From positions 806,001 through 870,000 of the forward strand of contig NZ_WOTN01000003.1 in the NCBI RefSeq assembly GCF_010993745.1: a DNA stretch of 64,000 bases. Direction: 5' to 3'. The translations under genes were made by a program, and so were the position numbers. The notes under the pieces were generated by a model. The model made no database searches and was not told the DNA's origin. It worked only from the letters and a program-made list of their open reading frames with translations. Below, piece after piece: positions 21,625 through 63,830 of the stretch. The stretch's first letter is position 1. Every line of letters starts with the position of its first letter. The DNA is from Fodinicola acaciae (GTDB taxonomy: Bacteria; Actinomycetota; Actinomycetes; Mycobacteriales; HKI-0501).

Positions 21625-21738
21625 GACCAAGATCATTTTCATTACATATGTACATTCCACGCGAACCCACCCCCCACCCGATCTGGGTGGGGGCCAACAT
21701 TGGCAGGTGGGTACGACAGTTTCTGGCCGTAGCGGGTA
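21625..21738. repeat. Solo arm of the intergenic repeat family (copy A)
   Basis: A single type-1 arm in reverse: GACCAAGATCATTTTC, then CGCGAACCCACCCCC, hairpin, GGTGGGTACGACAGTTTC and the outer end GTAGCGGGTA. It occupies most of the 173-base space between divergent araC-type and mrp genes, so any promoter for either gene must lie within or beside it. Confidence 0.8.
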
Positions 21739-27735: not shown

Positions 27736-27811
27736 GATCCGGCCGATTCACCCTCCGATAGCACAGATCTGCCCCTCCGGCGCACCGCCACTCGTCCGTC
27801 CGGCCACCACC

Positions 27812-28180
27812 TACCCGCTACGGCTCGAAATTGTCGTACCCCCCTGCCAATCTGGGCCCCCACCCAGATCGGGCGGGGGTGGGTTCGCGTGGTTACTTAC
27901 CTAAGTTCAAAGTTGATCTTGGTCCAGCACTGATGTAGCGCTAAACGCCCGATGTGTCGGAATAGTGGACGCACGCAAGGACGCCTTGCGTGCGTCTGTT
28001 GCACGTAAGGAGGCCATGCGTGCGTGGGGCGCGTGACGCCTGGGGTCAGAGTGATCCACGATGCTTTTGAGGCGGCGACCAAGATCATTTTCGCGTATTG
28101 GTTGCAACCTCTCAGACCCACCCCCCACCCGACCACTGGGTGGGGGCAATTCTTCGGAGTAGGTACGACAGTTTCGGCCT
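27812..28180. repeat. Full-length intergenic repeat element (copy B)
   Basis: About 369 bp between divergent sigE and O-methyltransferase. Order: outer end TACCCGCTACGGC, GTCGTACC, type-1 arm hairpin, inner junction TTGATCTTGGTC (27913-27924), core with AGCGCTAAACGCC and nested palindromes (27968-28025), inner junction GACCAAGATCA (28077-28087), type-2 arm (CAACCTCTCAGACCC, hairpin, GGGGGCAATTCTTC), GTACGACAGTTTCG. Core orientation relative to arms is the same as copy C. Confidence 0.88.
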
Positions 28181-28320
28181 GGTCGGCCTGAGTTGGACGA
28201 TCGGCACGGCGTGTCGCGGCCGTGGACGCGCCGTGCGGCCGGTGTGCTGGCTCTAATAGGCTTGCGCGCGCTCACCGCGCACGCGGGGACGTAGGCGGGA
28301 GGTGCGCCATCACCGGTTGG

Positions 28321-28968
28321 GTGTCGTCGGTCACCACGATCGCCGACAGCATCGAGTACGTCGAGGGTTACATCGGCGAGGACGAGGTGCTGGCGGCGGC
28401 GCGTGGCCGGGCCGCCGAGGTGGGGTGCCGCGCCGTCGGTCCCGGAGCCGGCGCGGCCCTGCGGCTGCTGGCCAGCCTGGTCTCGGCGCGCGCGGTGGTG
28501 GAGGTCGGCACCGGCACCGGGGTCAGCGGGCTCTGGCTGCTCCGCGGCCTCGGCACCGCCGGCATCCTCACCAGCATCGACACCGAGTCCGAGCACCAAC
28601 GGCTGGCTCGCCAGACGTTCGCCGACGCCGGCGTCGCACCGGGTCGCTTCCGGCTCATCAACGGCCGCGCCGGTGACGTCCTCCCCCGGCTCGCCGACGG
28701 GTCGTACGACGTCGTGTTCATCGACGCCGACCCCGGCAACTACTCGACCTACCTCACCCAGGCGGTTCGCCTGCTGCGCGCCGGCGGGGTGCTGGCGGTC
28801 AACAACGTGCTCGCCGACGGGCGTACGGCCGACGCCGCGGCACGCGACCCGGAGGCCGTCGCGCTGCGCGGGATCGCCTCCGCCGTACGCGACGACGACC
28901 GTTTCGCCGCCGCGATGCTGCCGGTCGGCGACGGCCTGCTCGCCGCCACCCTGCTGCACACCGGCTGA
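28321..28968 (+). CDS. Class I SAM-dependent O-methyltransferase
   Basis: The protein of about 215 residues has the SAM motif VVEVGTGTGVSGLWLLRGL, an acidic ribose-binding SIDTESEHQ, and VVFIDADPGNYSTYL as in catechol-type O-methyltransferases. Mycobacteria carry the homologous gene divergent from sigE. GTG 28321 is the first standard start in frame; a GGGAGG sits 18 bases upstream, which is long, and an ATC codon at 28309 would be better spaced, so the exact start is uncertain. The methyl acceptor is unknown. Confidence 0.85.
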   Translation: MSSVTTIADSIEYVEGYIGEDEVLAAARGRAAEVGCRAVGPGAGAALRLLASLVSARAVVEVGTGTGVSGLWLLRGLGTAGILTSIDTESEHQRLARQTFADAGVAPGRFRLINGRAGDVLPRLADGSYDVVFIDADPGNYSTYLTQAVRLLRAGGVLAVNNVLADGRTADAAARDPEAVALRGIASAVRDDDRFAAAMLPVGDGLLAATLLHTG

Positions 28969-28969
28969 C

Positions 28970-29287
28970 TCACGAGGCCAGCAGGAAGCCGAGCAGGCCG
29001 GTGAGCACCAGCCAACACAGCAGCAGCCCGATGATCGCCGGCCGTCGCGGCGCGCCGCGAAACATCCCGTAGCCGATCAGTCCGGCACCGACCAGCGCGA
29101 GCGTCGCGGCGACACCGCTGAGAAACCCGTCGACGACGGTCATCAGGACGTCGGTGTTCGGCGAGCCGGCGGTCAGCGCCAGCCGGACGAACTCGAAAAG
29201 CACGATGACCGCGGCGGCCGACGCCAGGATCAGGCCCAGCCGGACCCGGCGGGTGCCGGTGGTGAGAGAGTCGTACGGCAGCCTCAC
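28970..29287 (-). CDS. Small membrane protein downstream of glgC
   Basis: The 105-residue product has three predicted membrane helices (about 15-35, 48-72, 82-103) and no motif I recognise. The GTG at 29287 overlaps the glgC stop as GTGA, so it is co-translated with glgC. Its end lies 2 bases from the convergent O-methyltransferase stop. Function unknown. Confidence 0.6.
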
Positions 29288-30504
29288 GGCTCGACTCGTT
29301 CCCCTTTCCCCAGCACGACGATCCCCGACTCGGTGACGCGGTGCCGCAGCCGGTCCCGGTCGGCCTCGACTCCGAGGGTGGCGCCGGGTGGTACGAGCAC
29401 ATTCTTGTCCACAATGGACCGTCGGACCACCGCACCGGGGCCAATGCGTACGCCGGGCATCAACACCGAGTCCTCGACGACGGCGCCGTCGGCGACGTGT
29501 ACGTCCGGCGACAGCACCGAGTTGCGGACCGACCCGCTGATGATGCAGCCGGTCGACACGATCGAGTCGGCGGCCATGCCGCCCAGCACAAACTTCGCCG
29601 GCGGCAGCTGCGGCGGGTTGGTCAGGATCGGCCACTGCCGGTTGTAGAGGTTGAAGATCGGGTGCACCGACACCAGGTCCATGTGCGCCTCGAAATACGA
29701 GTCGAGCGTGCCGACGTCACGCCAGTAGCCGCGGTCGCGCGGCGTCGCTCCCGGCACCTCGTTGCGGTCGAAGTCGTAGACCTCGGCGTCGGACTTGCGC
29801 ACCATCATCGGAATGATGTTCGCACCCATGTCGTGCGCTGAGCCGGGGTCGGCGGCGTCGACGCGTAATGCCTCCAACAACGCCTCGGTGCGAAAGACGT
29901 AGTTGCCCATCGACGCGAAACTGCTGTTCGGGTCGTCCGGCAGACCAGGCGGATCGGCCGGTTTCTCCAGAAACCCGGTGATCGTACGTCCGTCGTCGGC
30001 GGTGTCGATGACGCCGAAACCGGTGGCCTGCTCGCGGGGTACGCGGATGCCGGCGACCGTCACGCCGACGCCGGAGTCGATGTGCGCGTCGACCATCTGC
30101 CGCGGGTCCATCCGGTAGACGTGGTCGGCGCCGAACACCACGATGTGGTCCGGGTCCTCGTCGTACACCAGGTTCAGCGACTGGTAGATGGCGTCCGCCG
30201 AGCCGGTGTACCAGCGCGGGCCGAGCCGCTGCTGCGCCGGCACCGGTGTGACGTAGTCGCCGAGCAACGCCGTCATCCGCCAGGTCTGCGTGACGTGCCG
30301 GTCCAGCGAGTGCGACTTGTACTGGGTGAGTACGCAAATGCGGCGGAAGCCGGCATTGACCAGATTGGACAGCACGAAGTCGACGAGCCGGTACTGGCCG
30401 CCGAACGGCACCGCCGGCTTGGCGCGGTCGGCCGTCAGCGGCATCAGCCGCTTGCCCTCGCCGCCGGCCAGCACGATTCCGAGCACCGAACGTCCTGTTC
30501 CCAC
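29284..30504 (-). CDS. glgC: Glucose-1-phosphate adenylyltransferase
   Basis: The 406-residue enzyme makes ADP-glucose for glycogen or maltose-1-phosphate synthesis. Visible features are the nucleotidyltransferase signature [28 protein letters not shown], the catalytic-domain [15 protein letters not shown], and a C-terminal left-handed beta-helix ([19 protein letters not shown]). GTG 30504 is favoured by an AGGGTG six bases upstream; GTG 30513 is the alternative. It is divergent from the GT4 glycosyltransferase gene. Confidence 0.95.
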
Positions 30505-30522
30505 GCCAAGCACCCTAGTGTG

Positions 30523-31695
30523 ATGACCATGCGGGTGGCATTGCTGACGAACGAATATCCGCCGACCATTTACGGCGGCGCCGGCGTACACGTGGACTTC
30601 CTGGTCCGGTCACTGGCCACCATGCTGGACGTCGACGTGCACTGCTTCGGCCCGGACCGTGACGGCGCCGTCGCGCACCGGCCGCCGACCGAGCTGGCCG
30701 ATGCGAACGCCGCATTGCGCACGGTCGGCACCGACGTGCTGATGGCCGCGGCGGTCGACCCGGCGACCGACCTGGTGCACTCGCACACCTGGTACACCGG
30801 CCTCGCCGGCCACCTCGTGTCGTTGCTGCACGACATCCCGCACGTGGTGACCGCCCATTCCCTGGAGCCGTCGCGGCCGTGGAAAGCCGAACAGCTCGGC
30901 GGCGGCTACGCGTTGTCGACGTGGGCCGAGCGCACCGCCTTCGAGGCGGCCGACGGCGTCATCGCGGTGAGCGCCGGGATGGCGTCCGACATCATCCGCG
31001 CCTATCCCGGCGTACGGCCGGAGCGGATCCACGTGATCCACAACGGCGTCGACACCGACTTCTACGCGCCGGACCCGGCACCGGAGAGCGTACGCGCGCT
31101 GGGGGTCGACCCGGACGTGCCGTACGTGATCTATGTCGGCCGGATCACCCGCCAGAAGGGCCTGCCACATCTGCTGGCCGCCTGCCACGAGCTGCGGCCC
31201 GGCGTACAGATCGTGCTGTGCGCGTCGGCGCCGGACACGCCTGAGATCGAGGCGGAAGTCCGGTCCGAAGTGGACAGTCTGCGCGCGGCGCGCGGCGGTG
31301 GCGTTGTGTGGCACGAAAAAATGCTGCCGCGGCCGGATCTCATCAAGCTCCTGTCGCACGCGCGCGCGTTTGTGTGTCCGTCTGTCTACGAGCCACTGGG
31401 GATCGTCAACCTGGAGGCCGCGGCCTGCGGCACGGCCGTCGTCGCCAGCGACGTCGGTGGCATCCCGGAGGTGGTCGCCGACGGCGAGACGGGCCTGCTG
31501 GTGCACTATGACAGCGCTCTCGTGCCCGCGTACGAGGCCGGACTCGCCGCCGCCATCAACCGACTGATCGACGACCCCACCGAAGCCAAGTCGATGGGCG
31601 CCGCCGGCCGGGAACGCGCCGTCCGCGAATTCCGCTGGTCGATCATCGCCGAACAAACCCGCGCCGTCTACCAGTCCCTCCTCGCGACCCGCTGA
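30523..31695 (+). CDS. glgA: Glycogen synthase/maltose-1-phosphate synthase (GlgA/GlgM type, GT4)
   Basis: The 390-residue GT4 enzyme starts with [21 protein letters not shown], has a glycine-rich donor loop, [12 protein letters not shown], and the acceptor motif ExG(x)-type [18 protein letters not shown]. The actinobacterial short form, called GlgA in many annotations, was shown in mycobacteria to be GlgM, which makes maltose-1-phosphate from ADP-glucose. ATG 30523 or 30529 is the start. Only 18 bases separate it from the glgC GTG, so the mRNA is probably leaderless or nearly so. Confidence 0.92.
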
Positions 31696-32079
31696 TTACC
31701 CGCTACAGCGCGAAACTGTCGTACCCCCCTGCCAATCTGGGCCCCCACCCACATCGGGTGGGGGGTGGGTTCGCGTTGGAAACTCAGATAAGTTCGAAAT
31801 TGATCTTGATCGTACGACGCCGGGCGCCGATGTAGCGCTAAACGCCCCATTTGCCGGGCCGGCAGATGCACGCAAGGCCACCTTGCGTGCATCCAGTGCA
31901 AGCATGGGGGCCATGCTTGCAGCCGTGGCGTGACTCCTGTGACCAGAGTGACCACCGAGGCGTCGACCAAGATCAACTTTGAATTACCTGTGCAACCTCT
32001 CAGACCCACCCCCCACCCGGCCACTGGGTGGGGGCAATTTTTCGGGGTGGGTACGACAGTTTCGCCCTGTAGCGGGTAA
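31696..32079. repeat. Full-length intergenic repeat element (copy C), best-preserved
   Basis: The 384-bp element begins directly after the glgA stop. Outer ends TTACCCGCTACAG and CTGTAGCGGGTAA are perfect complements, followed inward by CGAAACTGTCGTACCC and its complement with one mismatch zone. Each arm has a CCCCCACCC/GGGTGGGGG hairpin. Inner junctions are TTGATCTTGATC and GACCAAGATCAA. The core carries AGCGCTAAACGCC and two palindromes (31868-31922). Both ends abut TA dinucleotides, which would fit TA target duplication. Confidence 0.92.
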
Positions 32080-32128
32080 ATGGTGGGGTCGGCGGGAGAA
32101 TGTCAGACCCGGCGGCCATGCTGGGGTG

Positions 32129-33022
32129 GTGACTGAGAGCATGCAGCTGCCCGCCGCGCAGCCGTTCGATCTCCGGGCTTCGTTGCGCGCGATGGCTTAC
32201 TTCCGGCCGGCCGATATTGACGACCAGACCATCGACGGCGACCGGGTGCGCAAGGCGCTGGCCGTCCGGCGTGGCGCGAAGGACGCGGCGGTGGTCGTCG
32301 ACGTGTCGCCGGAAGGTGACGGCGTACGGGTCGAGGCGCACAACGCCAGGAAGGCCGAGTTGCCGGCGATCGGCCGGATGGTCGCCGACTGGCTGTCGCT
32401 GGACGACGATCCGGGGCCGTTCCTGCGGATCGCCGCGAAGGATCCGCCGATGCGCGACATCCTTGCGGCCACCAGAGGTCTGCATCAGGTGCGCTTCCCC
32501 AGCCTCCCGGAAGGTGTCTGCTATTTCATGCTGACCCACCGCACCTCGCAGGCCGTGGCGGCCGGTCGCAAGCGGCGGATCGCGGCGGCGTACGGTCCGC
32601 GGCTGACCGTCGGCGGCGCCGAGCATGTGGCCTTTCCGACGCTGGAGACGTTGGCCGGGTTGACCGCCGGCGAGCTGCGTCCGTACGCGGCCAACGACCA
32701 GCAGGCCAACCGGCTCGCGGCGGCGATCGCCGGCGTCAACGACCTCGGTGAGGAGTGGCTGCGAGAGGCGCCGACCGGCGAGGTGCTGACGGCGTTGCGG
32801 CGCATTCACGGCATCGGCGAGTTCACCGCGAGCGCGATCGCGCTGCGCGTGCTCGGCCGGCCGGTGTCGCCGCCGCTGACGATGCCGCAGTTCGCCGGGG
32901 TCATCGAGCAGGTCTACCAGGGCCGGCGGACGGCGGACGAGCTGACGAAGGCGTACGGCGAGCAGGTGGCGCACTGGACGTACGTGAGCCGCACCGGGCT
33001 CGGCTGGCTGGAGCGGACATGA
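32129..33022 (+). CDS. AlkA-like HhH-GPD DNA glycosylase family protein, no canonical Asp
   Basis: The roughly 297-residue protein has the AlkA-like layout: a mixed N-terminal domain and a helical domain with the helix-hairpin-helix LRRIHGIGEFTASAIALRVLGRP. In active enzymes a catalytic Asp follows about 18-20 residues after the GIG hairpin; here the matching segment reads VSPPLTMPQFAG, with no Asp. It may be inactive, use another residue, or be a DNA-binding paralogue. Start GTG 32129 or ATG 32141. Confidence 0.75.
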   Translation: MTESMQLPAAQPFDLRASLRAMAYFRPADIDDQTIDGDRVRKALAVRRGAKDAAVVVDVSPEGDGVRVEAHNARKAELPAIGRMVADWLSLDDDPGPFLRIAAKDPPMRDILAATRGLHQVRFPSLPEGVCYFMLTHRTSQAVAAGRKRRIAAAYGPRLTVGGAEHVAFPTLETLAGLTAGELRPYAANDQQANRLAAAIAGVNDLGEEWLREAPTGEVLTALRRIHGIGEFTASAIALRVLGRPVSPPLTMPQFAGVIEQVYQGRRTADELTKAYGEQVAHWTYVSRTGLGWLERT

Positions 33023-33065
33023 GTCGGCCCCGGCACCAGGCCGGGGCCGCGGATCGTATGTGGAC

Positions 33066-33233
33066 TCAGCTCTTGATGTTCTTCAGCGCTTCTCCGAGGT
33101 CGTTGGCCTCGTCGGCCGACATCTCGACCACGAGCCGTCCGCCCCCCTCCAGTGGGACCCGCATGACGATGCCGCGTCCCTCCTTGGTGACCTCGAGCGG
33201 ACCGTCACCCGTCCGCGGCTTCATGGCCGCCAT
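33066..33233 (-). CDS. DUF3117 family small protein
   Basis: The 55-residue protein MAAMKPRTGDGPLEVTKEGR... is the highly conserved actinobacterial DUF3117 (Rv1211-like). ATG 33233 gives the family's exact length and has GGGGAG upstream; the frame extends to 33278 without family support. Function is unknown. Its position near glgA and tag is conserved in mycobacteria. Confidence 0.92.
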   Translation of the reverse strand: MAAMKPRTGDGPLEVTKEGRGIVMRVPLEGGGRLVVEMSADEANDLGEALKNIKS

Positions 33234-33464
33234 GTCGAAACTCCCCTCGACCGGTGGCCGCACCGGTGCGACGGCCACTCCCTTACCACCCGGTATCCCG
33301 ACCTACACCGCCGACAGCGCCAGCGCAAGCTGCGTGAATGCGGACCGGTTCCCGGAGACAACGGCCATTATTCTCCTGCATGACGGCCTTCGCTCCCAAA
33401 CCGGGTCGGCGATGCCGGCGCGTCGGCGATACTGGGGAACACCATCGCGTCAGGAGGGGAAACC

Positions 33465-34259
33465 GTGCCGGACTCGCTCACCGTCGACGTTGCCGAGGCC
33501 GTCGCCACGGTGGTTTTCAACCGTCCCAAGGCAATGAACGCGCTCGACCGTGAGCTGAAGGAAGCGCTGAAGGCGACCCTGCCGGAGCTGTCCGCCGACC
33601 GGAAGGTGCGCGCGATCGTCCTCACCGGCGCCGGCGACCGGGCCTTCTGCGTCGGACAGGACCTGCGTGAGCACCTGGCGCTGATCGAGGCCGGCGACCC
33701 GGCGCCACTGTCCACTGTGGCCGATCACTACAACCCGATCACGCTGGCCATCGCCGAGGCGCCGAAGCCGGTGATCGCGGCCGTACGCGGCACCGCCGCC
33801 GGTGCCGGCGCGTCTTTCGCGTACGCGGCCGACATCCGCTTCGGCGGTCCGTCGACGTCGTTTCTGATGGCTTTCGCCAACATCGGCCTGACCGCCGACT
33901 CCGGCGCGTCGTGGACGCTGCAGCGGCTGGTCGGCTATGCGAAGGCGACCGAGCTGATGATGCTGGCGACCAAGGTCGGGGCGGAGGAGGCCGCCCGGCT
34001 CGGCCTGCTCACCACCCTGGTCGACGACGACGAGAAGGTGCTGCCGGCCGCACAGGAACTGGCGGCCCGCCTCGCCGCCGGCCCCACCGTCGCGTACGCG
34101 CAGATCAAGCGCAGCCTGGCCTTCTCGGCATCGCACTCACTCACCGACAGCCTGGCCGTCGAGGACGCTGCCCAGACCGCCGCCGGCGCGACCGCCGACC
34201 ACGCCGAGGCGGTGGCCGCCTTCGTCGCCAAACGCCAGCCGGTCTTCCGGGGCGAGTAA
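33465..34259 (+). CDS. Enoyl-CoA hydratase/isomerase family protein
   Basis: The 264-residue crotonase-fold protein has NRPKAMNALDRELKEAL, the oxyanion segment FCVGQDLREH and AVRGTAAGAGASFAYAADIR. The Gly-rich oxyanion loop and a PaaG/PaaB-like DxREH suggest fatty-acid or aromatic-CoA catabolism. GTG 33465 is set by AGGAGGGG seven bases upstream. It stands alone between divergent DUF3117 and a repeat element; the substrate is not defined. Confidence 0.9.
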   Translation: MPDSLTVDVAEAVATVVFNRPKAMNALDRELKEALKATLPELSADRKVRAIVLTGAGDRAFCVGQDLREHLALIEAGDPAPLSTVADHYNPITLAIAEAPKPVIAAVRGTAAGAGASFAYAADIRFGGPSTSFLMAFANIGLTADSGASWTLQRLVGYAKATELMMLATKVGAEEAARLGLLTTLVDDDEKVLPAAQELAARLAAGPTVAYAQIKRSLAFSASHSLTDSLAVEDAAQTAAGATADHAEAVAAFVAKRQPVFRGE

Positions 34260-34295
34260 TCCGGCGAGTCCACTTCCGACACGCCGAGCCCACTT

Positions 34296-34479
34296 CGAAA
34301 CTGTCGTACCCCTCGACCAAAGTTGCCCCCACCCAGTGGTCGGGTGGGGGGTGGGTCGAGAGGCTCACCATGACGCAAATTTCGTCAAGGCGAAAGGCCT
34401 CTCACCCACCCCCCACCCCGTCCTGGGTGGGGGCCAAAACTGCCACCTGGGTACGACAGTTTCGCGCTGTAGCGGGTAA
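34296..34479. repeat. Short, coreless repeat element (copy D)
   Basis: About 184 bp: CGAAACTGTCGTACC, type-2-like arm (AAGTTGCCCCCACCCAGTGG, GGGTGGGTCGAGAGG), a minimal middle with GACGCAAATTTCGTC, then the opposite arm and GTACGACAGTTTCGCGCTGTAGCGGGTAA. The AGCGCTAAA core and its palindromes are missing. It lies between convergent genes. Confidence 0.82.
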
Positions 34480-34486
34480 TCCGTGC

Positions 34487-35080
34487 TCAGCGTTCGGCCG
34501 GTACGTGGCAGCCGGCGACGTGGTCGTCGACCATGCCGGTGGCCTGCATGAGGGCGTAGCAGGTGGTCGGGCCGACGAAGGCGAAGCCGGCCTTCTTCAG
34601 CCGCTTGGCCATCGCCACCGACTCGGCGGTGATCGTCGGCTGGTCGTGCACCGACACCGGTCGCGGCGGCCGCGGGTCGGGCGCGTACGACCAGAGCAGG
34701 TCCGAGAGCCCGCCGTCGAGGTCGGCGGCGGCCCTCGCGTTGCGGATGGCGGCGTTGACCTTGGCGCGGTTGCGGACGATCCCGGTGTCGGCCAGCAGTC
34801 GCGCCACGTCGTCGCCGCCGAAGTCCGCGACGGCCTTGATGGAGAAACCGGCGAAAGCGGCGCGGAAGTTCTCGCGCTTACGCAGGATGGTGATCCACGA
34901 CAGGCCGGACTGGAACGCCTCCAGGCTCAGCCGCTCGAACAGCGCGTCGTCGCCGGTCAGCCGGCGGCCCCACTCGGTGTCGTGGTAGGGCCGGTAGTCC
35001 GGCGCGCTGTCACCCCACGAGCAGCGGACCAGGCCGTCGTCGGCGAGGACGAGGCCGTCCGGCAGGTCACGCTTCGTCAC
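34487..35080 (-). CDS. tag: DNA-3-methyladenine glycosylase I
   Basis: The 197-residue protein removes 3-methyladenine from DNA. It has the Tag zinc ligands and motifs: CSWGDSAPDYRPYHDTEWG near the N-terminus, FERLSLEAFQSGLSWITILRKRE, FVGPTTCYALMQATGMVDDHVAGC. GTG 35080 overlaps the upstream gene by 14 bases; an earlier GTG-less extension to 35104 is less likely. Synteny matches mycobacterial tagA. Confidence 0.94.
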   Translation of the reverse strand: MTKRDLPDGLVLADDGLVRCSWGDSAPDYRPYHDTEWGRRLTGDDALFERLSLEAFQSGLSWITILRKRENFRAAFAGFSIKAVADFGGDDVARLLADTGIVRNRAKVNAAIRNARAAADLDGGLSDLLWSYAPDPRPPRPVSVHDQPTITAESVAMAKRLKKAGFAFVGPTTCYALMQATGMVDDHVAGCHVPAER

Positions 35081-35441
35081 GGGCCGCGAACTCCGTCTGG
35101 TCACCGGTCTTCTCGTACACCGAGTCGTGCAGCGTCTTGGACATCCTGCCGAGCTCGTCCTCCAGTGCCTGGATGTGCGTGTCGCGTACGTCGATGTCGT
35201 ACGCGAGCCGCGCCAGGGTCTCGTCGACCTGCGCCATCCGGTAGCCCCGGATGACCACGTCGAAACGCAGTCCGTGCACGTCGGTGCCGGTCGCCGGCCG
35301 GTCGTCCGGCAACGAGGTCGGCGTCGTGTCCGGCCGCGGGTCGGACATCCCCGGCGTGCGGCCGAGCGTATAGGCGGCGCCGGCGAACAGCACCGCGGCC
35401 AGGATGACCGCGACGAGGACGGAGATCAGCACTGCATCCAC
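35067..35441 (-). CDS. DivIVA-domain-like membrane-anchored protein
   Basis: The 124-residue protein has an N-terminal membrane helix (about 3-25), a Pro/Thr-rich linker, and a DivIVA-type start motif LRFDVVIRGYRMAQVDETLARLAYDIDVR followed by a coiled coil. Mycobacteria have a similar protein (Rv1209) next to tagA. It may act in polar growth or division, which is not shown here. Start GTG 35441. Confidence 0.75.
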   Translation of the reverse strand: MDAVLISVLVAVILAAVLFAGAAYTLGRTPGMSDPRPDTTPTSLPDDRPATGTDVHGLRFDVVIRGYRMAQVDETLARLAYDIDVRDTHIQALEDELGRMSKTLHDSVYEKTGDQTEFAARDEA

Positions 35442-35563
35442 CGCTTCATGGTGTCATGCGCCGCGACGCGACGACCGGCCGCAGGGCCACCCGCGCGGGC
35501 TCGCGGCCTTTCGTAGGTAAGTCACGGGTAAAGCGAATACCGTGGTCGCCGGAGGAGATGCCG

Positions 35564-38431
35564 ATGGCCATCCGGACCGGGACGGGTGCGTTCGTCGGCC
35601 GGCGCGAGCAACTGGCCGCCGGCACCGCGCTGCTGGACGACGTCCGCGCCGGCGCCGGCGCGGCGATGCTGCTGGTCGCCGGCGAGGCGGGCATTGGCAA
35701 GACGCGGCTGCTGGCCGAGATCCGCGAGTACGCCAGCGGCACCGGCACGCGCGTGTTGACCGGCGGTTGTCCACCGGCCAGCGACTACCACGTGCCGTAC
35801 GCGCCGCTGGTGGAGGCCTTCCAGCGCCTGCCGTCCAGCGCGGCGATCGACCAGGCGCTGGCGGTGATGATCGGTACGGGCCGGGACAACCCGTCGCTGC
35901 GTGTCGACCCGGCCGCTCGGCAGCAGCTGTTCCACCTGGTCACGCGTACGCTCGGCGGGCTCACCGCGATGACACCGGTGCTGCTGGCCGTCGAGGACCT
36001 GCACTGGGCCGACCGGTCCACCCTCGGCCTGCTCGCGTTCGCCGCGACCCAGCTGCGCGACCGGCCGCTGCTGATCGCCGGCAGCTATCGCGACGACGAG
36101 CTGGAGCCGGCTCATCCGACCCGCCGGCTGCTGGCCGAGCTGTCCTGCCGTGAGCGGTGTACGACGATCACGCTGCCGCCGCTGGACCGCCAGGACACCG
36201 CCGCGCAGCTCGCCGGCCTGCTGCCGGCACCGGTCGACCAGCGGCTGGTGACCGCGGTTTTCGCGCGCTCAGGCGGAAATCCGTTCCTGACCGAGGTGCT
36301 CGCGCCACTTGGTGGCGGCGGACCGCTGCCGGTGGCCGTGCACGACCTGATCCTGCGTACGGCCAACGACCTGCCGTCGGACAGCCGCGCCGTGCTGCGC
36401 ACCGCCGCGGTCGCCGGTGCGCAGGTCAGCCACGATCTCCTGGCTGCGCTGCACAAAGACGACGACCAGTTGACGACCGCGTTGCGAGCGGCCATCGATC
36501 GCCATCTGCTGGTGCCGGACGCCAACGGATACCGGTTCCGGCACGCGCTCATCGCCGAGGCCCTCTACGCCGACCTGCTGCCGGCCGAGCGGCGCCGTAC
36601 GCACGCGCAGGCGGCCACCCTGCTGACCGCGCATCCGTCCTGGGGTGAAGTGTCGACGGCGGTGCGGGTGGCGCACCACTGGCGTGCCGCCGGCCGGCTG
36701 CCGGAGGCGTTGGCGGCCGAGATACGTGCCGGCCAGGCGGCCGCCGCCGTGCACGCTCATCAGGAGGCCCTGGAGAGCCTGGAACGCGCCATCGAGCACT
36801 GGCCGGCGGTCCGTGACGCCGAGCGGGTCGCCGGCATGGATCGCGCGACGCTGCTGAGCGGCGCGGCCGACCTGGCCGATCTGGTCGGTGACGGCGTACG
36901 CGCGATCGAGCTGATGCGCCAGGCGACCGACGCGGTCGACGCGGCGCGAGAGCCGAAGCGTGCGGCCCGGCTTTTCGCGTTGCTGGCCGAGCACGAGCTT
37001 TGCGAGAGCCACGACGACGAGGCGCAGGCCGCGCTCGACCGTGCTGGTGAGCTGCTGGCCGGCACGGAGGCGGACGGCGACTCCGCGTACGTGCTGTCGG
37101 CGACCGCTTGGGCCGCGCTGCGCCGGGAGCTGGCGGAGCCGGCGGTCACGTACGGCGCCCAGGCCGTCGACCTTGGCCGGCTGACCGGCGACCTCACCGC
37201 TGAGGCGGTCGGTCACATGGCGCTCGGATTTGGCCTGGCCGAGCGCGGTCGGCTGGACGACGGCATCGCCGAGCTGCGCGCGTCTGTCGCGCTGCTCGAC
37301 GGCCGGACCGACGTCGAGGCGCGCTGGCCGGCGTACTTGTATCTGGCCGCGGCGTTGCGCACCGCCAACCAGCTCGACGAGGCGATCGCCGTGGCCGCCG
37401 ACGGTCACACGCGGGCGCGGCTTTGTGGACTGGAGCAGGCGTACGGCTCGCGGTTGCTCGACGAAGCTGCGCGCGCCGAGCTGCTGAGCGGCCGATTCGA
37501 CCGCGCCGCTGAACGGGTCGAGGCAGCGTACGCCTGCGGGCCGACGCCGTATGTCGCACGCGCGCTGGACCTGACGTTTGCCGAGCTCGCCTTGCTGCGC
37601 GGCGACCTCGCGGCCGGTCGTGAGGCGCTGGCGCGGGTGGACGTGGACGGCTGTCTGTCGTCGCGGCGGCCGGCGAAGATCCACCGGATGCTCACGGTGC
37701 GCGTCGACTATGCGTTGCGAGAACGGCGGTTTGCCGACGTACGCGCGGATCTGGACGCGGCGCTGGCGTTGCTGCCTGCACAGCGGCTCGGTCAGTTGCT
37801 GGCCTCCGGCGTACGCGCCGAGGCCGAGCTGGCGGCGGCGGCGCGGGCCATGCGTGACGCGCCGGCCGAGGCCGAGGCCGCGCGGCGGATCGAGGACCTG
37901 CTGGCGCACGTGCCGGACCTGCTCGACGAACCTGAGCAGGCGGCGTTCGCGGCCGTGTGCCGCGCCGAGGCCGGCCGGCCCGGTTGGCCGGCGGCGGTGG
38001 CTGGCTGGCGCGCGCTGGCACGGCCTTGGCAGGTCGCGTACGCGACGTGGCGGCTCGCCGAGGCGACGATCTCCGGCGACCGCGACGAGGCCGCGCGGCT
38101 GCTCCGGCAGGCTCACCGGCAGGCGGAGACACTCGGTGCCGGACCGCTGGTCGGCGACATCCGGTCGACGGCACAGCTGCACCGCGTCCCGCTCGGCGAA
38201 CCGTCCGCCGAACCGGCTGTACCGCGCGCGCGTACCGACCTGACCGTCCGCGAACTGGAGGCCCTGCGCCACCTGGCCGTCGGCCGGTCCAACCGCGAGA
38301 TCGCGCACGCGCTGTTCATCAGCCCGAAGACAGCGAGCGTGCACGTCACCAACATCCTGCGCAAACTCAACGTCGACCGCCGCGCCAAGGCCGCCCAGGC
38401 CGCCCGCCTACTCGGCCTCATCGACCCCTAG
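35564..38431 (+). CDS. Large LuxR-type (LAL/MalT-like) ATPase regulator
   Basis: The 955-residue protein has an N-terminal AAA/NACHT-like domain with Walker A GEAGIGKTR near residue 40 and Walker B LLAVEDLHWAD near 145, a long helical TPR-like middle (about 350-870), and a C-terminal LuxR HTH (LTVRELEALRHLAVGRSNREIAHALFISPKTASVHVTNILRKL). Such LAL regulators respond to small ligands. ATG 35564 is chosen over ATG 35558 because GGAGGA then has a 7-base spacing. No obvious target operon is adjacent. Confidence 0.92.
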   Translation: MAIRTGTGAFVGRREQLAAGTALLDDVRAGAGAAMLLVAGEAGIGKTRLLAEIREYASGTGTRVLTGGCPPASDYHVPYAPLVEAFQRLPSSAAIDQALAVMIGTGRDNPSLRVDPAARQQLFHLVTRTLGGLTAMTPVLLAVEDLHWADRSTLGLLAFAATQLRDRPLLIAGSYRDDELEPAHPTRRLLAELSCRERCTTITLPPLDRQDTAAQLAGLLPAPVDQRLVTAVFARSGGNPFLTEVLAPLGGGGPLPVAVHDLILRTANDLPSDSRAVLRTAAVAGAQVSHDLLAALHKDDDQLTTALRAAIDRHLLVPDANGYRFRHALIAEALYADLLPAERRRTHAQAATLLTAHPSWGEVSTAVRVAHHWRAAGRLPEALAAEIRAGQAAAAVHAHQEALESLERAIEHWPAVRDAERVAGMDRATLLSGAADLADLVGDGVRAIELMRQATDAVDAAREPKRAARLFALLAEHELCESHDDEAQAALDRAGELLAGTEADGDSAYVLSATAWAALRRELAEPAVTYGAQAVDLGRLTGDLTAEAVGHMALGFGLAERGRLDDGIAELRASVALLDGRTDVEARWPAYLYLAAALRTANQLDEAIAVAADGHTRARLCGLEQAYGSRLLDEAARAELLSGRFDRAAERVEAAYACGPTPYVARALDLTFAELALLRGDLAAGREALARVDVDGCLSSRRPAKIHRMLTVRVDYALRERRFADVRADLDAALALLPAQRLGQLLASGVRAEAELAAAARAMRDAPAEAEAARRIEDLLAHVPDLLDEPEQAAFAAVCRAEAGRPGWPAAVAGWRALARPWQVAYATWRLAEATISGDRDEAARLLRQAHRQAETLGAGPLVGDIRSTAQLHRVPLGEPSAEPAVPRARTDLTVRELEALRHLAVGRSNREIAHALFISPKTASVHVTNILRKLNVDRRAKAAQAARLLGLIDP

Positions 38432-38440
38432 CCACCCGAC

Positions 38441-38814
38441 TTACCTGCTACGGCGCGAAACTGTCGTACCCCTCTGTCAATCTGGGCCCCCACCCAAAAC
38501 GGGCGGGGGGTGGGTTCGCGTGGTTACTTACCTAAGTTCAAAATTGATCTTGAGATTCCGCCTCATGCGGCTCAGTGGTCACAATGATCACACGGGTCAC
38601 ACTGCGTGATGCACGCATGGGGGCCTTGCCTGCACTGGACGCACGCAAGGGGGCCTTGCGTGCATCCGACAACCAGACAAAGGCCGCATTTAGCGCTCCA
38701 CTCGCAACCGCGACCAAGATCAATTTCGCATTACCCAGGTAACCTCTCAGACCCACCCCCCACCCGACCACTGGGTGGGGGCAATTTTTCGGGGAGGGTA
38801 TGACAGTTTCGGCG
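38441..38814. repeat. Full-length intergenic repeat element (copy E), core flipped
   Basis: About 374 bp between convergent genes. Type-1 arm on the left (TCAATCTGGGCCCCC, GGGTTCGCGTGG, TTCAAAATTGATCTTGA), type-2 arm on the right (GACCAAGATCAATTTCGC, CTCTCAGACCC, GGGGGCAATTTTTCGGGG). The core landmark reads GGCCGCATTTAGCGCTCCA on the right, the reverse of copies B and C, so the core is inverted relative to the arms. Core palindromes lie at about 38611-38670. Confidence 0.88.
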
Positions 38815-38832
38815 ACCCCTTGGCGTGTCGAG

Positions 38833-39645
38833 CTAGCCTTCGACGGGTTCGGCGGTCGGGTCGGCGCCGGACGGTAATTCGGTGTCCAGTGACGCGGCTA
38901 GTTCCAGCTCGGAGTCGACGATCACCTTCACCGCCTCCTCGACCGAGTCGGTCAGCGTGATCAGGTCGAGGTCGGTGCGGTTGATCTTCGCGCCGGACAG
39001 CATCGGGCCGCGCAGCCAGTCGACCAGGCCCTTCCAGTACGCGGTGTCCATGAGAACGACCGGGAAGCGCGTCACCTTGCGGGTCTGCACCAGTGTCAGC
39101 GCCTCGAAAAGCTCGTCCATCGTGCCGAAACCGCCCGGCAACACACAGAAAGCCTGCGAGTACTTGACGAACATCGTCTTGCGCGCGAAGAAATACCGGA
39201 AGTTGATCCCGATGTCGACGTACTCGTTGAGGTGCTGCTCGAACGGCAGCTCGATGCCGAGGCCGACCGACGTGCCGCCGGCCTCGACGGCACCGCGGTT
39301 GGCGGCCTCCATGATCCCTGGGCCGCCGCCGGTGATCACCGCATAGCCGGCCTCGGCCAGCGCTCCGCCGAGCCGCCGCGCCATCGCGTAGTCGGGGTGG
39401 TCGGCCTTGGTACGCGCCGAGCCGAAGACGGCGACCGCACTGCCGAGCTCGGCGAGCGCGCCGAAGCCCTCGACGAACTCCGACTGGATCCGCAGCACGC
39501 GCCACGGGTCGGTGTGCACCCAGTCGCTGGGACCCCGGCTGTCCAGCAGCCGCTGGTCGGTCGTACTGGCCGAGATGTGATGCCGGCGCAGCGTGACCGG
39601 ACCGCGCTGCCGCAAGTCACGCCGTACGCCGTTTTCCTCGTTCAT
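38833..39645 (-). CDS. LOG family (TIGR00730) nucleotide phosphoribohydrolase
   Basis: The 270-residue protein has the LOG motif PGGFGTMDE and GGGPGIMEAANRGA, typical of enzymes that release bases from nucleoside 5'-monophosphates (cytokinin-activating in plants and mycobacteria). The N-terminal 60 residues are a family-variable extension. ATG 39645; longer frames upstream have no homology. Its position next to dapE matches mycobacterial Rv1205/Rv1202. Confidence 0.9.
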   Translation of the reverse strand: MNEENGVRRDLRQRGPVTLRRHHISASTTDQRLLDSRGPSDWVHTDPWRVLRIQSEFVEGFGALAELGSAVAVFGSARTKADHPDYAMARRLGGALAEAGYAVITGGGPGIMEAANRGAVEAGGTSVGLGIELPFEQHLNEYVDIGINFRYFFARKTMFVKYSQAFCVLPGGFGTMDELFEALTLVQTRKVTRFPVVLMDTAYWKGLVDWLRGPMLSGAKINRTDLDLITLTDSVEEAVKVIVDSELELAASLDTELPSGADPTAEPVEG

Positions 39646-39695
39646 GTCCCCACGGTAGACAAGCCCACCCAACGGCCGCCGACCAGCAGGCGACG

Positions 39696-40754
39696 TCAGC
39701 CGGCCAGGAAGCGTACGAGCGCCTCCGCGGAGGCGGTGATGAGCGGCATCCGGCAGTACTCGTCGCGCTTGTGCGCCATGTTCGGGTCGCCGGGTCCGAA
39801 GTTGACCGCCGGGATGCCGAGCGTCGCGAACCGGCCGACGTCCGTCCAGCCGTACTTCGCCACCGGCGTGCCGCCGATCGCCGCGACGAACGCCCGCGCC
39901 GCCGGCTCGGACAGGCCCGGCGGCGCCGACGGCGCGGAGTCGGTGATCCGCACGTCGAAGCCGGCGAAGACCTCGCGTACGTGCGCCGCCGCGGCCGCCT
40001 CGTCGCGGTCGGGCGCGAAGCGGTAGTTGACGGTCACCGTGCACTCGTCCGGGATGACGTTGCCGGCGACGCCGCCGGAGATCCACACGGCGTTCAGGCC
40101 CTCGCGATAGACGCAACCGTCGATCGGCACGACGCGCGGCTCGTACGCGGACAGCCGGGTCAGGATCTCGCCGGCCGCGTGGATCGCGTTGGACCCGAGC
40201 CACGACCTGGCCGAGTGCGCGCGAATGCCGCTTGTCGTGACGACCGCGCGCATGGTGCCCTGGCAGCCGCCTTCGATGGCGCCGTTGGTGGGTTCGAGGA
40301 CGACCGCGAGGTCGCAGTCGAGCCAGTCGCGGCGGGTACGCGCGATCCGGCCGAGGCCGTTTCGCTCGGACTCGATCTCCTCGCAGTCATAGCAGACCAG
40401 CGTGAGGTCGTACGCCGGATCCGGCAGCACCGCCGCCGCGTGCAGCATCACCGCGACACCGGACTTCATGTCCGAGGTGCCGCAGCCGTACAGCCGGTCA
40501 CCATCCACTTTGGACGGCAGGTTGCCGGCGACCGGCACGGTGTCGAGATGGCCGGCCAGCAGGATGCGCCGCGGCTTGCCGGTGTCCGTACGCGCCAGCA
40601 CGGCATCGCCGTCGCGCACTACCTCGAAGCGGCCGATCGCACGCAGCGCGGCCTCCACCTCGTCGGCGAGCGCACGCTCGTTGCCGGACACCGACTCGAT
40701 GTCGACGATCGCGCGGGTCAACGCGATGGGGTCGGAACTCAGGTCGAGGGTCAC
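39696..40754 (-). CDS. dapE: Succinyl-diaminopimelate desuccinylase
   Basis: The 352-residue M20 zinc peptidase-family enzyme converts N-succinyl-LL-DAP to LL-DAP in lysine and cell-wall synthesis. Visible motifs: [11 protein letters not shown] (metal His, catalytic Asp), [16 protein letters not shown] (bridging Asp), [15 protein letters not shown] (general base Glu). GTG 40754 fits the family start. It forms a set with dapD (45.2 kb) and dapC (55.5 kb). Confidence 0.94.
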
Positions 40755-40808
40755 ACCAGTCGACGTTAGTCGCTCACGATCCTGCACATCCCGACACGCC
40801 GAGGGCTC

Positions 40809-41177
40809 GCCAAAACTGTCGTACCCTCCCCGAAAAATTGCCCCCACCCAGTGGTCGGGTGGGGGGTGGGTCTGAGAGGTTGCATAGGTAATGCGAAGTT
40901 GATCTTGGTCGCGGCGCACCTGGAGCGCTAAATGCCGCCTATGCCCGATTGTCGAATGCAAGCAAGGCCACCTTGCGTGCGTCCAGCGCAAGCAGGGACC
41001 CCATGCGTGCGTAGCGCTCAGTGGGCCAGGTTATCCGCGTGACCAATGTGACGAAAGGGACGCATGATTCAAATTTTTGAACTTATGTAAGTAACCACGC
41101 GAACCCACCCCCCGCCCGTTTTGGGTGGGGGCCCAGATTGGCACAGGGGTACGACAGTTTCGCGCTGTAGCGGGTAA
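40809..41177. repeat. Full-length intergenic repeat element (copy F), whole element reversed
   Basis: About 369 bp. Type-2 arm on the left (AAAACTGTCGTACCC, CGAAAAATTGCCCCC, GGTCTGAGAGGTTGC), inner junction TTGATCTTGGTC, core AGCGCTAAATGCCGCC with palindromes (40957-41011), then the type-1 arm in reverse and GTACGACAGTTTCGCGCTGTAGCGGGTAA. Read from its type-1 end, the core orientation equals copy E and is opposite to B and C. The left outermost end is degraded. Confidence 0.88.
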
Positions 41178-45077: not shown

Positions 45078-45130
45078 GGTCGCATGGCCCCCATGCGTGC
45101 ACTGGACGCACGCATGGGGGCCATGCGACC
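45078..45130. repeat. Solo nested palindrome (23-bp perfect arms)
   Basis: Arms 45078-45100 and 45108-45130 are perfect complements around ACTGGAC. Each arm is itself a palindrome (GCATGG-CCC-CCATGC and complement), giving a cruciform within a cruciform. The same unit forms the core of the full repeat elements. It lies 8 bases after a stop and 20 bases before dapD, so it may act as a terminator or as a repeat unit. Confidence 0.85.
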
Positions 45131-63777: not shown

Positions 63778-63830
63778 GTCCGCATGGCCACCATGCGTGC
63801 GTCGAACGCACGCATGGTGGCCATGCGGAC
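63778..63830. repeat. Solo nested palindrome (24-bp perfect arms)
   Basis: Arms 63778-63801 and 63807-63830 are perfect complements around TCGAA; each arm is itself palindromic (GCATGG-CCA-CCATGC type). It lies between the convergent genes and touches the typA stop. It is the third solo copy of the repeat core unit and may terminate both transcripts. Confidence 0.85.

Follow-up and report, generated by a model that had tools for sequence, protein, structure and literature searches.

A mosaic palindromic repeat family in Fodinicola whose core occurs in either orientation between its arms

BOX elements of Streptococcus pneumoniae and Streptococcus suis are composite intergenic repeats in which outer modules surround central ones, with predicted folding and with modules that also occur alone; in S. 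suis, the same central module is found with either of two outer pairs around it, and the effect of boxB depends on its orientation (excerpts of PMC3049150). Here we analyze a repeat family of comparable build in a 64,000-nucleotide stretch of the Fodinicola acaciae genome (contig NZ_WOTN01000003.1, positions 806,001 to 870,000; hereafter, the window), four full copies of which (B, C, E, and F) had drawn attention because the core appeared to face opposite ways in different copies. By architecture, the closest known kind appears to be the BOX element: the Fodinicola repeat likewise has outer modules around a core, a predicted fold and lone modules, the comparison being one of architecture only. 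A difference is that the ends of BOX resemble those of an insertion sequence (excerpts of PMC3049150), whereas no such partner was found for the Fodinicola repeat. Our analysis indicates that this is a mosaic palindromic repeat family in which the core probably was joined to the arms, or turned relative to them, a few times long ago, each state being inherited thereafter.

Bacterial interspersed mosaic elements (BIMEs) and repetitive extragenic palindromic (REP) sequences are described as extragenic mosaics assembled from palindromic modules and located predominantly downstream of genes (excerpts of PMC2817692 and PMC3733652), and the GTAG termini of REPs often supply the stop codon (TAG) to neighboring open reading frames (ORFs; excerpts of PMC3733652). 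The Fodinicola repeat similarly comprises short modules variously combined outside genes (134 arms, along with solo arms and solo cores). It differs from BIMEs in its much longer units and in residing in a genome with no match to the Y1 (IS200-like) transposase (PF01797; 0 matches, the same search being positive in 5 of 14 control genomes). Classical REP units measure 20-40 nt and bear a GTAG or CGTC tag; the outer ends of the Fodinicola repeat carry GTAG on the outward strand, but no unit of REP size with the tag at its foot was seen. With REP doublets forming hairpins (REPINs), the repeat shares an inverted pair of short palindromic repeats that forms a hairpin and is present in many copies outside genes (excerpts of PMC3116915). 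Unlike the system of REPINs and REP-associated tyrosine transposases (RAYTs), it has a large core and arms that are often unlike each other, and no RAYT-type gene was found in the F. acaciae genome. Miniature inverted-repeat transposable elements (MITEs) are short, strongly base-paired sequences with terminal inverted repeats that occur in many copies. Terminal inverted repeats, high copy number and strong base-pairing are common to the Fodinicola repeat, but it is GC-rich rather than AT-rich, no parent transposon was identified, and no clear target site duplication was detected in the compact elements with many offsets tried. The largest excess over random pairing, for a two-nucleotide word, was 7 versus 2.8 among 50 compact elements of Fodinicola feengrottensis and 4 versus 1.5 among 17 of F. 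acaciae.

Architecture and distribution of the family

A full copy spans ~330-460 bp and consists of two ~115-bp arms, each with a GC-rich hairpin, that flank a ~130-bp core with two palindromes; the arms around the core are either one of type 1 and one of type 2 or both of type 1. Compact elements (~170-205 bp) have two arms and no core. Solo type-1 arms are common, many of them ending at TTGATCTTGG, and armless cores are present as well (L080, L091, L096, and L097, all four with a similar other flank). Full and compact copies alike terminate on either side in a sequence resembling CGAAACTGTCGTACCC and hence have terminal inverted repeats (CGAAACTGTCGTAC ends).

In the source genome of F. acaciae (8.86 Mb, 4 contigs), this terminal motif occurs at 174 sites with up to 2 mismatches, whereas the reversed control has 3 matches. 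A search of 61 genomes that allowed at most 1 mismatch gave 133 and 123 matches in the two Fodinicola species and 0-3 in each other genome, F. feengrottensis HKI 0501 being the sole congener within the 60 relatives searched. A strict type-1 arm pattern had zero matches in a wider collection of genome contigs, and a looser one matched 63 stretches, all from F. feengrottensis HKI 0501 (the source genome's own records were possibly excluded from that collection). The family is so far known solely from Fodinicola. No publication on this repeat was among the literature matches listed, and the word 'repeat' occurs 0 times in the main text of the species paper (PMC7232338). An Rfam scan of window positions 20000-46000 returned two matches, to mir-729 and SNORD94, both far under gathering scores and dismissed as chance.

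Core orientation and core lineage

The original prediction held that two unlike arms enclose the core in copies B, C, E, and F and that the core is flipped relative to them in half of these copies. The positions of the four copies proved correct (Table 1), and all four combine a type-1 arm with a type-2 arm on the opposite side. We scored core direction, read from the type-1 arm, with two probes, CL and CR, that represent the asymmetric parts of the core, and used shuffled sequences as the null; the palindromes were dropped because they are alike in both directions, and the probes were taken from copy C alone to avoid circularity. The CL/CR scores were 44/36 forward and 16/17 reverse in copy B, 18/16 forward and 28/38 reverse in copy E, and 16/12 forward and 30/26 reverse in copy F, with a shuffle mean of ~16 and p <=0.004 for each winning direction. 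Copy C is a self-match, in which CL also scores 26 in reverse (p 0.009); the CL probe alone is not fully one-sided. Both probes place the core in one direction in B and C and in the opposite direction in E and F, as had been claimed.

The sequence details offered for a switch hold in part. The exact core landmark AGCGCTAAACGCC is present in B and C, whereas E and F hold the variant GGAGCGCTAAATGC instead. The inverted junction pair TTGATCTTGGTC/GACCAAGATCAA is represented by an exact 12-mer once in each window copy and never twice; the second junction matches this 12-mer at 11/12 positions in B, 11/12 in C and 9/12 in E, and is unrecognisable in F. Matched inverted recombination sites flanking the core, such as an invertible switch would have, are not observed.

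The presence of both orientations extends past the window. We sampled 60 regions of the F. acaciae genome, picked from matches that included 100 of the 174 terminal-motif sites, so that all family counts are lower bounds; BLAST of arm and core parts against these regions yielded 144 arm pieces and 45 facing arm pairs. The scored set consists of 31 elements of 300-480 bp; unlike inner arms are combined with a readable core in 24 of them, of which 14 face the way of copy B and 10 the way of copy E. Five elements with two type-1 inner arms (L054, L055, L079:998, L081, and L082) were dropped, as were L074 and L077, to which no orientation was assigned; L094:11371 (256 bp) and L078:10614 (662 bp) were scored and, being outside the size range, left uncounted. 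Arm type was set by the inner arm, and L079:4282, L059:978, and L074 were turned for the scoring, their type-1 inner arm being on the opposite side. The labels of the 24 elements were identical with the copy-C-only probes and with probes that included copy E sequence.

If cores flipped frequently, close relatives would be expected to face both ways. We found that the nearest core faces the same way for 22 of the 24 elements when the cores are aligned with MAFFT (p 1e-4; shuffles averaged 11.8; the exceptions are L070 and L089) and for 20 of the 24 in pairwise alignments (p 0.0026; exceptions L061, L075, L079:4282, and L068:991). A tree of 38 of the 42 cores found (4 short cores were left out) requires 3 changes between the B and E states, whereas 1000 shuffles averaged 7.9 and never went below 4 (0/1000 as low); the 9 'solo' rows of this tree include the one-armed L047, L085, and L068:9628, plus L041:1318, which lies ~130 bp from a compact copy. 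The best opposite-facing pair of cores is 77.5% identical, compared to 89% for the best B pair and 86% for the best E pair. The number of orientation events is uncertain; recent flipping is not seen.

The arms present a different picture. Type-1 arm identity is 87.6% between elements with two B-facing cores, 87.5% with two E-facing cores and 87.5% for mixed pairs (core identity being 73.0, 76.9, and 72.1%, respectively), and arms carry little orientation signal. Arm parts are mixed as well: in the 134 arms, a type-1 middle part accompanies a type-1 inner part in 60 and a type-2 inner part in 15, and a type-2 middle part accompanies a type-2 inner part in 20 and a type-1 inner part in 5. This pattern fits, without proving, an exchange of modules around longer-lived cores.

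Several results weigh against rare events, inheritance and exchange of modules as the explanation. Which cores break the nearest-core rule varies with the alignment, and the tree is weak (11/35 inner branches starred; bootstrap not settled). Tested against all other rows, the E-facing cores are weakly clustered (7 changes, shuffled mean 9.0, 33/500 as low), and the approximately unbiased (AU) test leaves a single E clade standing (p 0.35). Middle types 3 and 5 pair only with inner type 2 among the 134 arms. Right arms track the cores in a Mantel test (r 0.28, p 0.0003), and left arms do not clearly do so (r 0.10, p 0.12), so that a part of each copy travels together. Arm exchange inside one element is not supported, given that an element's own arms score 0.756 against 0.771 for random pairs (one-sided p 0.99), and any exchange would accordingly run between elements. 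In the predicted core structure discussed below, covariation is modest, in that two-sided pair changes are no more numerous than in shuffled data (378 and 415 of 500 shuffles as high). Finally, joining of a core and its precise inversion give identical end points and are indistinguishable here. We consider rare joining or turning followed by inheritance probable, and no more than that, because the choice of alignment alters the nearest-core exceptions and clustering of the E cores is weak when all rows are counted.

Among the competing explanations, the one that survives best, unlikely as we deem it, is that the core, as an independent small mobile unit, entered between arms on several occasions, facing one way or the other. 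Armless cores do exist, four of them sharing a similar other flank, and L070, which is E-facing, groups with the armless cores and is adjoined by a CR-like stretch in the B direction; yet, 9 of the 10 E cores group apart from the armless cores, and an arm pair with intact junctions and no core was not noticed among the 45 facing pairs, for which no systematic search was made. Still less likely, in our estimation, is a single ancient inversion that gave rise to two element lineages spreading as whole units, which would agree with the non-rejection of an E clade and with right arms tracking the cores, but not with mixed arms, the lack of a clear orientation signal in the left arms, or the best tree, which requires 3 changes and puts L070 among the armless cores. 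Ongoing site-specific inversion, whereby the inverted junctions would recombine and the core would flip in living cells, is highly improbable, because, although the core boundaries match an imperfect inverted repeat and both core orientations are common, orientation groups by core lineage, opposite-facing cores are at best 77.5% identical, the paired junctions have degenerated in E and F, and a Pfam scan restricted to 19 neighboring proteins found no recombinase domain.

What stands of the proposed recombination switch is that the block found in both directions sits between TTGATCTTG-type junctions, so that past inversion of the core, or re-joining, at these sites is possible. Rather than a switch, the data favor the alternative that the original prediction itself had named (old rearrangement, or gene conversion among the copies), although the tree calls for at least three changes. 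In the scenario of rare events and inheritance, the core would have been joined to, or turned relative to, the arms on a few past occasions at TTGATCTTG-type junctions (at least 3 changes in the tree), through rare joining or inversion events, and each core state would have been inherited as the copies diverged, with arms presumably being replaced by recombination or gene conversion between copies.

Modules, sister species and predicted folding

The modules of the family also occur apart or in other combinations. The central palindrome pair of the core is dispersed alone at two places in the window (Table 1) and also at L041, L065, L091, and L098. The shared flank of the armless cores reads AATACYT, then a CTAAC-like motif where shown, possibly a third arm type. 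Near-identical blocks on different contigs, L047:1023-1496 and L085:1005-1489, each combine a one-armed core copy and a compact copy, with the same core direction, and are perhaps a recent duplication. At L064:12361-12471 and L083:3161-3240, a CGCATGG..CCATGCG palindrome unit recurs in short tandem arrays with a ~30-bp period. An extra insert that lies between arm and core, starts with GCGAACTCGACGT and ends with a near reverse complement thereof, is present at L059:6812, L057:1012, L060:1040, and L059:978. Another palindromic repeat, with ends of the TTGATCTT..AAGATCAA type and an inner CTACCCAAACC-type hairpin (L078:10614-11275 and L148 7340-7600), sits inside or beside family elements in both species.

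Table 1 Copies of the repeat and their parts in the window (window coordinates)
Feature	Coordinates	Strand	Description
Copy A	21625..21738	-	Solo type-1 arm
Copy B	27811..28178	+	Full composite; type-1 arm left, B-oriented core, type-2 arm right
Copy B junction TTGATCTTGGTC, CL side	27913..27924	+	Exact 12-mer
Copy B core, CL to CR	27934..28062	+	Profile match
Copy C	31695..32081	+	Full composite; B-oriented core
Copy C core	31831..31959	+	Profile match
Copy C junction, CR side (GACCAAGATCAA on +)	31965..31976	-	Exact 12-mer
Copy D	34277..34480	-	Compact: two arms, no core
Copy E	38440..38830	+	Full composite; type-1 arm left, core flipped
Copy E core, reversed relative to arms	38571..38700	-	Profile match and probe scores
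Copy E junction, CL side (GACCAAGATCAA on +)	38712..38723	-	Exact 12-mer
Copy F	40792..41177	-	Full composite; core flipped relative to arms
Copy F junction TTGATCTTGGTC, CL side	40899..40910	+	Exact 12-mer
Copy F core	40921..41050	+	Profile match
Central palindrome pair of the core	45081..45127	n/a	Armless
Central palindrome pair of the core	63781..63827	n/a	Armless

F. feengrottensis holds the compact form of the repeat. A profile of the core gave only weak palindrome matches in 83 loci of this species (L148-L230, with L109-L147 outside the set), and no site with a core in both species was found among the loci compared. We aligned 19 intergenic sites between the two genomes and judged them by eye: at 7, the F. 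acaciae element, including copies B, D, and F, has no family counterpart in F. feengrottensis, at 10 (one seen in part), each species has arms of its own type, and at 2, arms are absent from both. The shared-site counts are biased upward because most of the F. feengrottensis loci were chosen for holding the repeat. At the site of copy C, F. feengrottensis has other compact arms, and at that of copy E, the left neighbor did not align.

For a full copy in single-stranded form, a single long hairpin tipped by the core is predicted. In both predictions that were made, for copy E as DNA (folding z -7.3) and copy C as RNA (z -14.2), the arms form the long stem and the core forms the tip. In 32 of the 42 cores, pairing is kept in 87.8% of cells for the two local palindromes and in 84.5% for an alternative long hairpin, compared to 24-55% for slid partners, and few shuffles reach the covariation score (10 and 1 of 500). 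The structure may be independent of the core direction, which would let both directions persist.

Gene context and implications

The gene context was read from our own codon usage-based gene calls: among 91 of 92 element clusters, those with calls on both sides, 33 are flanked by convergent, 48 by tandem, and 10 by divergent genes, whereas the 305 neighboring gene pairs in the same regions, element-bearing ones included, comprise 63 convergent, 186 tandem, and 56 divergent pairs. The 19 neighboring proteins in the Pfam scan include enzymes, regulators and a sigma factor, and two belong to no family.

The outer end TACC[CT]GCTAC accounts for 102/139 ends, 65 of which follow a gene ending toward them; the distance to the stop codon is -3 to 12 nt in 50 of these 65 and exactly 1-2 nt in 30, compared to 2.5% of 3760 random intergenic points that fall within 12 nt past a stop. 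For other kinds of ends, 0/8 and 2/15 are near stops. In the window, the ends at 31695, 34480, 38440, and 41177 lie 1, 8, 10, and 7 nt past a stop codon, respectively, and in copy C, TACCCGCTAC starts 1 nt past the TGA of the ORF whose end is 31695. Such closeness to stops has a precedent in the GTAG termini of REPs, as noted above. In F. feengrottensis, 12/99 ends lie at -5 to 12 nt from a stop, that is, they are not stop-adjacent to the degree seen in F. acaciae. Of the 50 stop-adjacent genes, 21 were matched in F. feengrottensis loci, and the stop falls at the same codon in 9 of these 21, several of the other matches being weak. We tentatively raise, as a minority view, that the TACC[CT]GCTAC end is placed or kept exactly at native stops, in which case spread or function would be tied to gene 3' ends in F. 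acaciae and core direction would be irrelevant. Under the reading that we favor, too, the element, if functional, could act as a hairpin at gene 3' ends, with the core direction being of little matter.

The family poses the question of what spreads mosaic repeats in a genome that gave no Y1 transposase match. Should transcripts confirm the placement of one end type at stop codons, it could be tested directly whether genes have adopted such repeats as 3'-end elements. More generally, a composite bacterial repeat can hold its central module either way over long times, and a flipped segment need not be a phase switch.

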